From NCBI GenBank assembly GCA_027038965.1, contig JALWFG010000011.1, positions 62,001 to 126,000 on the forward strand: a stretch of 64,000 bases of DNA, in the 5' to 3' direction. A model generated the notes under the pieces. The model was not told the DNA's origin, ran no database searches, and was given only the letters and a program-made list of their open reading frames with translations. The DNA comes from Candidatus Desulfofervidaceae bacterium. GTDB lineage: Bacteria; Desulfobacterota; Desulfofervidia; Desulfofervidales; Desulfofervidaceae. Positions 19,406 to 36,651 of this stretch are shown piece by piece (the first letter of the stretch is position 1; every line of letters begins with the position of its first letter). Both the position numbers and the translations under genes were made by a program.

Positions 19406-20767
19406 ATGCAACCAGAACCGGTAAGACCGTTTAAACTGGTCAAATACTTTGCCTATAGTAGTCTTTTGTTGCTCTTTGTCGCCTTTTTGGCCCTGGTTTT
19501 TATTGTATCCAAAGGGGCCAAGGGGCTTATTTTGCAAAAAAATGAGGAATATGCCTTTTTGGTAGCCGAAAATTTAAACCATCAGGTTTTTTTACAGTTT
19601 ACCCTACCTACGGCCCTTATCTTTGGCCACATCCGTTTAAGGGAAAAAACTCAATTTAATCGCCTTGACTTTATTGTTCGTAACACAATCCATGGTTTTG
19701 ATATTGAGCAGGTAAATATTTATGACCTAGAAGGCACCATTGCTTATAGCACAAACCCTAAGTTGGTTGGCAAGAAGGTAGTAGTACCTCCAGAGTTTTA
19801 TCTTGCCAAACAAGGGACTATTGCTTCCAGAGTAGAAGGTAACAAGTTAAAAACCTATGCCCCATTCAGGGCCGAGCGGGCCCCAGCTCAAACGACAAAA
19901 CTTGTGCTGGGAATCTTTGAAATTACCCAAGACCTTACCAAGGACTATCATACGATAAAACGGTTTAAATTTACGGTAGCGGCAAGTGCTATTGCTATCA
20001 TGAGTTTGCTTTTTTTGGGCTTGACCCTAATTGTAAAAAGGGCCGAGCACATTATTACAATGAGGGTGGAGGAGCAAAGAAGGCTAGAGGATAAGTTGAG
20101 ACAAACCCAGCACTTGGCTACCTTGGGAGAAATGGTGGCTACGGTCTCACATGAGATTAGAAATCCCTTAGGGGTAATTAATAGTACAGCCGAACTTTTG
20201 TTAAAGAGAGAGCAAAAAAATCCCACCAATGCCCAATTGGCGCAAATAATCGTTGATGAAGTGAAAAGACTTAATCGGATTCTGACCGAATTCTTAGATT
20301 TTGCCCGACCTCAACTTCCTAATCCGAATCCTTGTAGGATAAGTGCCATAATCGATAAAGTATTGAGCTTTTTGAAGTCTGATTTAGAACAAAAGGATAT
20401 CAAAATAGTCAAAGATTACATAAATGATCCGGTCATCAAAGCCGATCCAGATTTGCTTTACCGGGCCTTTTTGAACATTTTGATTAATGCCATTCAGGCC
20501 TTGCCCACTGGAGGGATAATCCAAATAGAATTAAAGCGAGACTTCAAGAAAAGGGGGGTGTTGGCTACCTTTACTGATAATGGCCCTGGGATCCCAGAAG
20601 AGGTCTTAGAGAAGGTATTTAATCCGTTCTTTACTACCAAGGAACAGGGTAGCGGTTTAGGATTGCCTATTGTGAAGAAGATTATTGAAAATCATGGAGG
20701 AGAAGTTAAAATTGAGAGTGAAGAGGGGAAGGGAACAAAGGTAATTCTTTTCTTCCCTGAGGGATAA
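19406..20767 (+). CDS. Sensor histidine kinase, NtrB/AtoS-like
   Basis: A 453-residue inner-membrane kinase. Transmembrane helices at ~12-37 and ~190-212 bracket a ~150-residue extracytoplasmic sensor region (IYDLEGTIAYSTNPKLVGKK suggests a PAS/Cache-like fold). The dimerisation domain has the phospho-accepting His in VSHEIRNPLG (~248). The ATPase domain has NILINAIQALP (N box), DNGPGIP (G1), FFTTKEQGSGLGL (F and G2). TGAGGA ahead of the ATG. It is 5 bases upstream of its partner, an NtrC-type activator. The signal is unknown. Confidence 0.9.
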   Translation: MQPEPVRPFKLVKYFAYSSLLLLFVAFLALVFIVSKGAKGLILQKNEEYAFLVAENLNHQVFLQFTLPTALIFGHIRLREKTQFNRLDFIVRNTIHGFDIEQVNIYDLEGTIAYSTNPKLVGKKVVVPPEFYLAKQGTIASRVEGNKLKTYAPFRAERAPAQTTKLVLGIFEITQDLTKDYHTIKRFKFTVAASAIAIMSLLFLGLTLIVKRAEHIITMRVEEQRRLEDKLRQTQHLATLGEMVATVSHEIRNPLGVINSTAELLLKREQKNPTNAQLAQIIVDEVKRLNRILTEFLDFARPQLPNPNPCRISAIIDKVLSFLKSDLEQKDIKIVKDYINDPVIKADPDLLYRAFLNILINAIQALPTGGIIQIELKRDFKKRGVLATFTDNGPGIPEEVLEKVFNPFFTTKEQGSGLGLPIVKKIIENHGGEVKIESEEGKGTKVILFFPEG

Positions 20768-20772
20768 AAGAT

Positions 20773-22140
20773 ATGGAAACTATTCTCGTAGTAGACGATG
20801 AACGAAACTTCTTAGTGGTGCTGAAAAGCCTCTTGGAAGAAGAGGGTTATGAAGTATTGACTGCCGCGGATTCCTTGGTGGCCTTAGACGTTGTAGAGCA
20901 CACAGATTTGGATGCCGTGGTGACAGATATGAAAATGCCTCATTTGGATGGTATTGGCCTCCTTGAAAGGATAAAGAAGATAAATCCTGATTTGCCGGTA
21001 ATTATGATGACTGCTTATGGCACGATTGAGAAGGCCGTAGAGGCCATGAAAAAAGGGGCTTATGACTATATTACTAAACCATTTTCTAACGAAGAGCTGA
21101 AGGTTACTATCCGAAAGGCTGTAGATATCTATCGGTTGGTTAAGGAAAATAGGTATCTTAATCAAGAATTGAGGAACCAATATAATTTTGGGAATATCGT
21201 TGGGAAAAGCAAGCCCATGCAAGAGATATTCTCTTTAATTCAAAAGGTGGCCAAAACAAGGGCAACGGTTTTAATTACTGGAGAGAGCGGGACTGGAAAG
21301 GAACTTGTGGCCAGGGCCATTCATTACAATAGTCCCCGCCAAAATAAACCCTTTATTTCTGTTAATTGTGCTGCCCTTCCAGAGTCATTGCTTGAAAGTG
21401 AGCTTTTCGGACATGAAAAGGGTTCTTTCACTGGTGCCGTGAGTATGCGTAAGGGTAGATTTGAGCTTGCAGATAAAGGAACCCTCTTTCTTGATGAAGT
21501 GAGCGAGATGTCTCCTACCCTTCAAGTGAAGCTATTACGGGTTTTACAGGAAAGAGAATTTGAGAGGGTAGGGGGCACAAAAACATTAAAGGTAGACGTA
21601 CGAATAATTGCGGCCTCTAACCGTGATTTAAAGGAAGAGGTGGAGGCAGGGCATTTTAGAGAAGATCTTTTTTATCGGCTTAATGTAGTTCATATTCACC
21701 TCCCTCCTTTGAGAGAGCGTCCAGATGATATCCCCCTTCTTGTAGCCCACTTTTTGCAAAAGTATGCCCAAGAAGTAGGAAGGCAAAGAGTGGAAATTTC
21801 TCCAGAGGCCCTCAATCTTATTTATACCTATACTTGGCCTGGTAATGTAAGGGAGCTTGAAAATGCTATAGAAAGGGCCGTTATCCTTTCTTCAGGTCAA
21901 GAAATTACTCCCGAACATTTGCCTCCTCATCTTTTTCAGAGCCAGCAATCTTATTCTGACATCTTCAAGCAGATTCCGACTACCCTTACTTTGCCTCAGA
22001 TTTTAGAGGAAGTTGAAGTGAAACTAATCCGCCGCGCCCTGGCCCAGGCCAATTACGTTCAGAGTAAGGCCGCCAAGATTTTGGGTATTACCAAAAGCCT
22101 TTTACAATACAAGATCAAAAAGTACAATTTGTTGTCTTGA
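20773..22140 (+). CDS. Sigma54-dependent response regulator, NtrC family
   Basis: A 455-residue activator with all three parts. Receiver (1-120): phospho-acceptor Asp in VVTDMKMP (~53) and Lys in TKPF. AAA+ domain (~145-375): Walker A GESGTGKE (~171), the sigma54-contact loop appears as GSFTGA in place of GAFTGA, Walker B TLFLDEVSEM, and the arginine-finger region. Fis-type HTH at the C-terminus (~415-455, AKILGITKSLLQYKIKKY). It should drive sigma54 promoters. A strong candidate target promoter lies only 146 bases after its stop, preceded by inverted repeats. Confidence 0.93.
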   Translation: METILVVDDERNFLVVLKSLLEEEGYEVLTAADSLVALDVVEHTDLDAVVTDMKMPHLDGIGLLERIKKINPDLPVIMMTAYGTIEKAVEAMKKGAYDYITKPFSNEELKVTIRKAVDIYRLVKENRYLNQELRNQYNFGNIVGKSKPMQEIFSLIQKVAKTRATVLITGESGTGKELVARAIHYNSPRQNKPFISVNCAALPESLLESELFGHEKGSFTGAVSMRKGRFELADKGTLFLDEVSEMSPTLQVKLLRVLQEREFERVGGTKTLKVDVRIIAASNRDLKEEVEAGHFREDLFYRLNVVHIHLPPLRERPDDIPLLVAHFLQKYAQEVGRQRVEISPEALNLIYTYTWPGNVRELENAIERAVILSSGQEITPEHLPPHLFQSQQSYSDIFKQIPTTLTLPQILEEVEVKLIRRALAQANYVQSKAAKILGITKSLLQYKIKKYNLLS

Positions 22141-22163
22141 GCTACCTTTGGGTACAAAAAATT

Positions 22164-22234
22164 GAATCTTAAAAAGATTCCTATATAACGCCGTTTTTTC
22201 ACAACGGAATTCCTGAGGGTTCAAATTTTTGAAC
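22164..22234 (+). promoter_or_regulatory. Candidate enhancer sites for the adjacent NtrC-type activator
   Basis: Three inverted repeats lie upstream of the sigma54 promoter: GAATCTT-AAA-AAGATTC (22164-22180), CCGTT...AACGG (22191-22207) and GTTCAAAT/TTTTGAAC (22219-22234). Their centres are about 140, 115 and 86 bases before the predicted start, the usual distance for enhancer binding. Which of them the activator binds cannot be told. They could also be RNA hairpins at the 3' end of the activator mRNA. Confidence 0.4.
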
Positions 22235-22285: not shown

Positions 22286-22302
22286 TTGGCAAGGTATTTG
22301 CA
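22286..22302 (+). promoter_or_regulatory. Sigma54 promoter (-24/-12)
   Basis: TTGGCAAGGTATTTGCA. The GG (22288-22289) and GC (22300-22301) are separated by exactly 10 bases as sigma54 requires, and the -12 half TTGCA is perfect. The -24 half TTGGCA-G is near consensus. Predicted transcription start is close to 22313. Confidence 0.75.
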
Positions 22303-22312
22303 TAAGAAAAAA

Positions 22313-22370
22313 GCAGTAGTGATCGTTTTCTCCCTCCTCTTGGCCGGTGACCGAGGTCACCGGCTTTTTA
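22313..22370 (+). ncRNA. Candidate sigma54-dependent small RNA (~58 nt)
   Basis: A transcript from the sigma54 promoter would run only ~58 nt before the strong terminator at 22343-22369. The 5' part is unstructured and contains a pyrimidine block TTTTCTCCCTCCTCTT (22326-22341) with the anti-Shine-Dalgarno core CCTCCT; the 3' part is a GC-rich stem, CGAG tetraloop and U-tail. This is the layout of a base-pairing regulatory RNA. No open frame with a ribosome binding site fits. The neighbouring NtrC-type activator is the obvious regulator. This is an inference from sequence; the alternative is a plain attenuator ahead of alr. Confidence 0.5.
22343..22369 (+). terminator. Intrinsic terminator
   Basis: Perfect 9-bp stem GCCGGTGAC (22343-22351) / GTCACCGGC (22356-22364), tetraloop CGAG, then five T. 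It closes the candidate small RNA and also separates the two-component genes from alr. Confidence 0.9.
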
Positions 22371-22476
22371 TTGCAGTCCTTAGTATTTGGTTGTTGAGGT
22401 TTCCCTCTATGACCTCTACACCCTTATTTTACTACCCTTACGGATTTTCTTTTAGAGTTTTTGTTTTTTAACTACA

Positions 22477-27016: not shown

Positions 27017-27109
27017 TGGCGGAGAGAGAGGGATTCGAACCCTCGGTGGGGCTTTTAACCCCACACTCGCTTAGCAGGCGAGCGCCTTCGACCACTCGGC
27101 CATCTCTCC
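27017..27109 (-). tRNA. tRNA-Ser (GCT)
   Basis: Cloverleaf on the minus strand: acceptor GGAGAGA pairs with TCTCTCC, D-arm TGGCCGAGTGG, anticodon loop CTGCTAA with anticodon GCT, a long variable arm (GTGGGGTTAAAAGCCCCAC) as expected for Ser, and T-arm GGTTCGAATC. The 3' CCA is encoded (27017-27019). Confidence 0.97.
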
Positions 27110-27158
27110 GCAGCTATTACAATACGCAAATTATCTACCTGTACTACAACGCCCCTCT

Positions 27159-27252
27159 TGGCGGAGGGAGAGGGATTTGAACCCCCGGAGGGCCCTTTAA
27201 GACCCTCAGCGGTTTTCAAGACCGCCGCCTTCAACCACTCGGCCATCCCTCC
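27159..27252 (-). tRNA. tRNA-Ser (TGA)
   Basis: Acceptor GGAGGGA, D-arm TGGCCGAGTGG, anticodon loop CTTGAAA (anticodon TGA), long variable arm (GAGGGTCTTAAAGGGCCCTC), T-arm GGTTCAAATC, and encoded CCA at 27159-27161. It is 49 bases upstream of the tRNA-Ser(GCT) gene on the same strand, so the two are probably co-transcribed. Confidence 0.97.
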
Positions 27253-36392: not shown

Positions 36393-36418
36393 GGTATTTA
36401 AAACTCCCAGTTAGGGAG

Positions 36419-36592
36419 CAGGTGTTATCCAGGTGCTGCAAGGCTTAATAGGGAAGTCCGGTGCAAGTCCGGCGCGGTCCCGCCGCTGTAACCGGGAACG
36501 AAACCCACAAAAGGCCACTGGGTATTGAGCCTGGGAAGGCGTGGGGAGTAGGAAGATCCGGAAGCCAGAAGACCTGCCTGGATAACGTTCTT
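36419..36592 (+). promoter_or_regulatory. Cobalamin riboswitch (AdoCbl aptamer)
   Basis: The class hallmarks occur in order: P1 strand GTTATCC (36424-36430), AAGTCCGGTGCAAGTCCGGC, CGGTCCCGCCGCTGTAA, GCCACTG, GGAAGGCG, and the B12 box AGCCAGAAGACCTGCC, closed by GGATAAC (36580-36586). It lies between the FKBP-like gene and btuB. Binding of B12 should switch off btuB-btuF through the downstream platform. Confidence 0.96.
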
Positions 36593-36651
36593 GCCGCCTC
36601 GCGCGGACGGGTGTGGCAAGAGGAGGAAAGGGCGAAGAAGAACGGGTGCAG

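Follow-up and report, generated by a model that had tools for sequence, protein, structure and literature searches.

The window considered here, i.e. the whole 64-kb stretch of DNA that was analysed, carries on its forward strand the genes for a sensor kinase and a sigma54-dependent response regulator, directly followed by a compact element that comprises a sigma54 promoter, a pyrimidine-rich segment and an intrinsic terminator:

19406-20767, + strand: sensor histidine kinase, ZraS-like (Pfam HisKA and HATPase_c)
20773-22140, + strand: sigma54-dependent response regulator, predicted activator of the small RNA (Pfam REC, AAA+ with GSFTGA loop, Fis-type HTH)
22152-22167, + strand: distal enhancer (UAS) candidate GTACAAAAAATTGAAT, with 3 mismatches to GTTCAAAWWTTTGAAC
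22219-22234, + strand: proximal enhancer (UAS) candidate GTTCAAATTTTTGAAC, matching exactly, as no other site in the window does
22286-22302, + strand: sigma54 promoter TTGGCAAGGTATTTGCA, with the -24 GG at 22288-89 and the -12 GC at 22300-01 (GG-N10-GC)
22313-22370, + strand: predicted small RNA of about 58 nt, its start deduced from promoter spacing and its end from the T-run
22326-22340, + strand: invariant 15-nt core UUUUCUCCCUCCUCU, anti-Shine-Dalgarno (anti-SD), predicted to be single-stranded and to be the target-pairing segment
22342-22365, + strand: stem-loop of the intrinsic terminator, with T's running on to 22369

Pfam assignments confirm the kinase/activator pair that an earlier note on this DNA had placed at 19406-22140. 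The kinase has two transmembrane helices and a periplasmic domain of mixed alpha/beta structure, and the best PDB match to its AlphaFold model (pLDDT 78.7) is the cytoplasmic domain of ZraS (9jfj). Activator orthologues (71-85%) are present in 6/6 genomes of the class in the collection, which include the source genome (G000), and kinase orthologues (63-76%) adjoin the activator throughout the class. A paralogue of the activator, 52% identical, lies outside the window in the source genome (L122, G000:C11:31063-32400); next to it comes a type IV prepilin gene that has the sigma54-like sequence TTGGTATAAATTTTGC upstream, and the paralogue is probably part of a PilR-type system. Elsewhere in the window there are a cobalamin riboswitch (36414-36595, + strand, 127 bits) and two tandem tRNA genes of about 90 nt each, of the type with a long variable arm (27020-27252, - strand).

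The exact GG-N10-GC spacing previously reported for the promoter is confirmed. The pattern TTGGCANNNNNNTTGCA has a single exact match within the window, at this site, and scanning the whole genome (2.19 Mb in 21 contigs) gives five exact matches against none for the reversed pattern; with two mismatches allowed, the window has 26 matches where 29 would be expected by chance. The terminator stem consists of 10 pairs (GGCCGGTGAC/GTCACCGGCT), the last of them G-U, around a 4-nt loop, and begins 29 nt past the predicted start at 22313. The earlier note had recognised this stem and its T-run, but had counted 9 pairs and a distance of 30 nt. The fold of 22313-22370 has an energy of -19.9 kcal/mol (z -2.4), with 3 of 200 shuffles equally good, and terminator-like sites by themselves are not enriched in the window (6 found, 5.9 expected). 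The combination of promoter and stem in one genome is thus moderate evidence, modestly above chance, and it is conservation that decides whether the element is real. A small protein was rejected as the product, as the open reading frame at 22286-22471 begins ahead of the transcription start and crosses the terminator, while a GTG frame within the RNA is unsupported, the 5' part of the RNA being variable.

Conservation in the class and spread across the phylum

A search of 59 relatives at the DNA level gave matches in G001 and G005: a strong one in a genome of the same genus, limited to query positions 146-229, which correspond to the promoter through to the terminator, and another in a genome of the same order. 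In all five class genomes whose contig continues beyond the activator gene (that of G004 ends there), the element lies directly 3' of the orthologous activator, with one predicted copy of the small RNA per genome. The conservation check proposed in the earlier note was run and passed: in 5/5 genomes the two promoter boxes (-24/-12) and the terminator stem are kept at this position, the -24 TGGCA and the -12 TTGC being identical in the alignment. The 15 consecutive columns TTTTCTCCCTCCTCT (22326-22340) are likewise invariant in the five genomes, while the stretch from the start site to the core varies freely. In the terminator 98% of cells are paired, and double (two-sided) changes are found in 5 of 11 pairs, a count reached by 0-1 of 500 shuffles; slid versions of the stem are 14-54% paired.

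Upstream of the promoter, each of the five class genomes with the element has two palindromes of the form GTTCAAA-WW-TTTGAAC, a proximal one at -67 to -71 and a distal one at -122 to -137 (counted from the GG). Together with the promoter these paired palindromes would make up the anatomy expected of an enhancer-dependent promoter, and they are candidate activator sites. From this anatomy and its conservation we infer that the activator drives the promoter at 22286-22302; the earlier suggestion that the kinase/activator pair controls the RNA is supported to the extent that two conserved upstream palindromes fit such control. The gene that follows the small RNA differs between genomes: G000 has alr there, G001 a methyltransferase-like gene and G002 another coding gene, and in both G003 and G005 the next gene is convergent. 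This implies that the element belongs to the activator, and not to its neighbour. The gene in G002 (L120) is on the same strand, and 11 nt of the core are complementary to its RBS (GAGGGAGAAAAATG); this may be a local target or a coincidence.

These comparisons bear on two other explanations of the element. The promoter and the hairpin might be unrelated, the latter ending the kinase-activator transcript and the former serving alr downstream. An operon terminator is indeed expected at this position, and the promoter and alr share a strand, but the terminator stands between them, the next gene is a different one in every genome and convergent in two, and the sequence diverges on either side of an unchanged core that separates promoter from stem; this arrangement is therefore very improbable. 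Alternatively, the RNA might belong to the alphaproteobacterial mmgR/suhB family (Rfam RF00519), which has a similar CGUUU-CUCCCU-hairpin plan, i.e. a pyrimidine-rich CUCCC core and then a terminator hairpin, and whose full model gives a match of 26.9 bits (E 0.0096). This is below the curated gathering cut-off of 41, however; the match in G001 is of 23.5 bits, making two of five orthologues with a sub-threshold match, and there is none in the others. As an anti-SD segment next to a terminator readily arises by convergence, membership of this family is scarcely credible. Two further Rfam candidates were rejected, namely the deltaproteobacterial atoC RNA motif (RF01733; 15.7 bits, E 2.2, gathering cut-off 50) and PyrR, for which the match is sub-threshold.

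Beyond the class, a close orthologue of the activator is present in 61 of 297 genomes of the phylum. The covariance model detects one copy of the RNA per class genome at 75-100 bits, and gives weak matches elsewhere; as an independent check, eight of the weak matches lie directly behind an orthologue of the same activator that is 57-69% identical. Scanning the DNA downstream of the 61 activator orthologues flagged 29 sites, of which 21 were accepted by reading as having a promoter, a pyrimidine anti-SD core and a terminator, most of them about 200 bp past the activator stop codon; with the addition of G231, about 22 of the 61 loci carry the element. The remaining flagged sites look like coincidences in coding regions, as do the matches of model R1 at L231, L233 and L235-L237. 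In the majority of the 61 orthologues this downstream scan found no recognisable small RNA, and model R1 missed the divergent tandem copies at L036. Kinase orthologues (40-49%) adjoin many of the activators with a small RNA elsewhere in the phylum; in family f19 the neighbouring kinase is only distantly related, and there is no small RNA. On the activator tree the presence of the small RNA needs 5 changes, compared with 12.9 in shuffles.

The number of units per activator is also seen to vary. At L261 (G272), L271 (G081), L272 (G010) and L036 there is a tandem pair of small RNA units behind a single activator, both units having a sigma54 promoter and a terminator of their own. A further four loci, L293 (G294:C83), L294 (G056:C1:230544), L295 (G028:C307) and L296 (G105:C29), have units resembling the small RNA, with a sigma54 site, a core of the CTTTTCCTCCT type or CTCTCC, and a terminator; a related activator is absent from the flank examined, and they are possibly orphan copies.

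Predicted pairing of the core with a porin start region

The complement of the 15-nt core, with G-U pairs allowed, was sought across the six class genomes. Besides the small RNA genes themselves, it forms the RBS of a convincing long gene only at one porin, in G000 (C16:99434), G001, G003 and G004. This gene is single-copy, its orthologues are 51-80% identical, and the complement lies at its RBS in 4/4 class genomes that have it; the orthologue is absent from G002 and G005, and G002 has an outer-membrane candidate target (L185) at one mismatch only. The protein is named as a porin-like outer-membrane protein on the basis of its signal peptide, its C-terminal QINF with an aromatic end, and a weak match to Alginate_exp (PF13372, E 0.0014, below cut-off), while a profile search of the PDB found no solved relative. 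In the three class genomes in which both partners are known, the predicted pairing is uninterrupted over 19, 20 and 24 bp and spans the start codon, with lineage-specific flanks.

Some degree of match to many RBSs is unavoidable for an anti-SD core, and the looser matches include many unrelated genes. In several genomes the 13-mer complement is hardly more frequent than its reversed control; it is therefore the long matches alone that carry information, and short counts were not used as evidence. When duplex energies were ranked over 730 sampled genes of G000 (about 0.8 Mb plus the window), the porin RBS came first (rank 1/730, -33.6 kcal/mol, z -3.6). Under 40 shuffled cores its rank was 2-242 with a median near 126, and with the small RNAs of other lineages it was 140 and 208. 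A second pair of outer-membrane genes, L346 (G001) and L347 (G004), which are 91% identical, have RBSs near the core complement; they came from a 19-mer start-codon pattern whose spacing is off by one and which scores the porin form poorly. In G001, the RBS for an exported protein of 275 aa (L138, G001:C37:35287) contains a 13-nt stretch, AGGAGGGAGAAAA, that is the exact complement, and this gene is a possible further target.

An independent lineage for comparison is that of families f50 and f35, distant from the class, in which the core has changed to ACUCUUUCCUCCU, or ACTCTTTCCTCCTA in most members. The corresponding complement, TAGGAGGAAAGAGT, was sought in eight f50/f35 genomes. Two exact matches serve as the RBS of a long ORF, and both of these are porins, in G184 and G106; matches with one mismatch include porins in G292 and G272, a lipoprotein and a few cytoplasmic genes. 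Over their full length, the porins of G184 and G106 show remote homology to that of the class, at 20-24% identity and with E values of about 1e-10 to 1e-20. Uninterrupted pairing in f50/f35 extends over 16-19 bp, and for both lineages together it is 16-24 bp within a lineage against 8-12 bp with partners swapped. Between the class and f50/f35, both the small RNA core and the start region of the homologous porins have thus changed, and yet they still match. By contrast, a prediction made beforehand of an outer-membrane target in G207 and G251 failed: they have no outer-membrane gene with a core-complementary RBS within one mismatch. The porin target is thus supported for the class and for some members of f50/f35, and not for every lineage.

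Two readings accept the small RNA and differ as to what it does. It could be a general anti-SD RNA that damps many mRNAs with a strong Shine-Dalgarno sequence, among which the porin merely has the strongest; this would suit the cores of other lineages, which are near the plain anti-SD CUUUCCUCCU, and the number of unrelated genes among the looser matches. However, the porin loses its first rank with the anti-SD RNAs of other lineages (140-208) as with shuffled cores (median near 126), and the pairing runs beyond the Shine-Dalgarno sequence into the start and second codons with flanks particular to each lineage, which makes such a general role unlikely. Still somewhat less likely is that the RNA is controlled by sigma54 and titrates a protein without pairing to the porin mRNA, either as CrcZ does with Hfq/Crc or as a sponge for CsrA. 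CrcZ has a like layout, lying behind cbrAB as its own transcription unit (PMC8871633), and the core consists of a short, repetitive run of pyrimidines. Against it, Hfq was not found in the class, the RNA sequence is without a GGA motif for CsrA, and the conserved core is one 15-nt anti-SD block that has its complement at one porin RBS in four genomes, core and RBS having altered jointly in another lineage. Pairing with the porin mRNA is supported by comparison, and we infer that it would repress porin translation. The earlier note had proposed the terminated RNA of about 58 nt, but missed both its anti-Shine-Dalgarno core and the porin target.

Proposed regulation and comparison with known systems

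From the sequence evidence, it is probable that the small RNA depends on sigma54, is activated by a ZraSR-like two-component system and in turn represses porin translation. The membrane kinase would sense an envelope-related signal and phosphorylate the activator; sensing of the envelope is suggested by the cytoplasmic part of the kinase being closest to ZraS, and by the predicted targets being outer-membrane proteins. The activator, as an oligomer, would then occupy both palindromes ahead of the promoter and set sigma54 RNA polymerase to work at 22286-22302, giving a transcript of about 58 nt that ends at the hairpin 22342-22365. The single-stranded anti-SD core and flanking bases are predicted to form a continuous duplex of 16-24 bp over the porin Shine-Dalgarno sequence, and mostly over the start codon too. 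This duplex would block ribosome binding on the mRNA of the major porin, and probably on those of a few other outer-membrane proteins. Hfq was detected in none of the six class genomes with a profile that recovers it in control genomes, among them E. coli and B. subtilis, and pairing would presumably depend on the long GC-rich duplex itself or on a chaperone of another kind.

A ZraSR-like assignment is appropriate insofar as the cytoplasmic domain of the kinase is most like that of ZraS and its partner is a sigma54 activator, with both below the NCBIfam cut-offs for ZraS/ZraR. We know of no small RNA directly downstream of zraR. The Qrr small RNAs are under the control of LuxO, a sigma54 regulator encoded nearby. 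GlmY is similarly under the nearby-encoded sigma54 regulator GlrR/QseF (PMC8745638). The parallel with GlmY-type RNAs drawn in the earlier note holds for this mode of control but not beyond it, as the present RNA has no match to the GlmY/GlmZ or Qrr families of Rfam, and the target logic of GlmY and Qrr differs from that proposed here. CbrAB-CrcZ of Pseudomonas (PMC8871633) is alike in having a kinase gene, a sigma54 activator gene and a separate small RNA gene activated by the regulator. It differs in that CrcZ titrates Hfq/Crc, whereas the present core is an anti-SD segment complementary to a porin RBS in a class in which no Hfq was found; the Rfam models of CrcZ and CrcY gave no match.

Also close are the non-coding RNAs of Desulfovibrio vulgaris that lie directly downstream of the sigma54 response regulators DVU0653 and DVU0679 and are targets of these regulators (PMC4641369, PMC3333781). 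That of DVU0679, Dv_sRNA2, is expressed in tiling arrays and its binding motif has been validated, with no function assigned to it (PMC4641369, PMC3333781). Going by their published description, these loci resemble the present one in layout, and the nearest Desulfovibrionaceae loci of the activator (L040, L067) have no such small RNA. The earlier surmise that this layout may be undescribed in the lineage must accordingly be narrowed: sigma54-controlled RNAs just downstream of their activator genes had already been reported in Desulfovibrio. Text searches of the literature turned up no publication about small RNAs in Desulfofervidus, nor any described sigma54-driven porin small RNA from the phylum. 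NcS25 of Burkholderia was discarded as a precedent for sigma54 control of a porin, being without a sigma54 motif according to its paper.

Control of porins by small RNAs is known mainly from the Hfq-dependent sigmaE systems of the Gammaproteobacteria. The present RNA is predicted to share with MicA and RybB (PMC1804206) the down-regulation of outer-membrane protein mRNAs, and its complementarity to an omp mRNA is likewise extended, covers the translation start and is kept in several species. The sequences are unrelated, and MicA and RybB depend on sigmaE and Hfq where the present system would rely on sigma54 and a two-component system, apparently free of Hfq. As a tentative, if plausible, generalisation, the RNAs described here may form a family of anti-SD small RNAs, governed by sigma54 and a two-component system, that provides, throughout much of the phylum, the omp-repressing arm of an envelope response, is apparently Hfq-free at least in the class, and has cores co-evolving with porin start regions by lineage. 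If so, the type of non-coding RNA seen beside the activators of sulfate reducers would have a likely role, and a cassette of kinase, activator and small RNA that works through sigma54, in genomes where Hfq was not found, would be an independent solution and the sigma54 counterpart of MicA and RybB.
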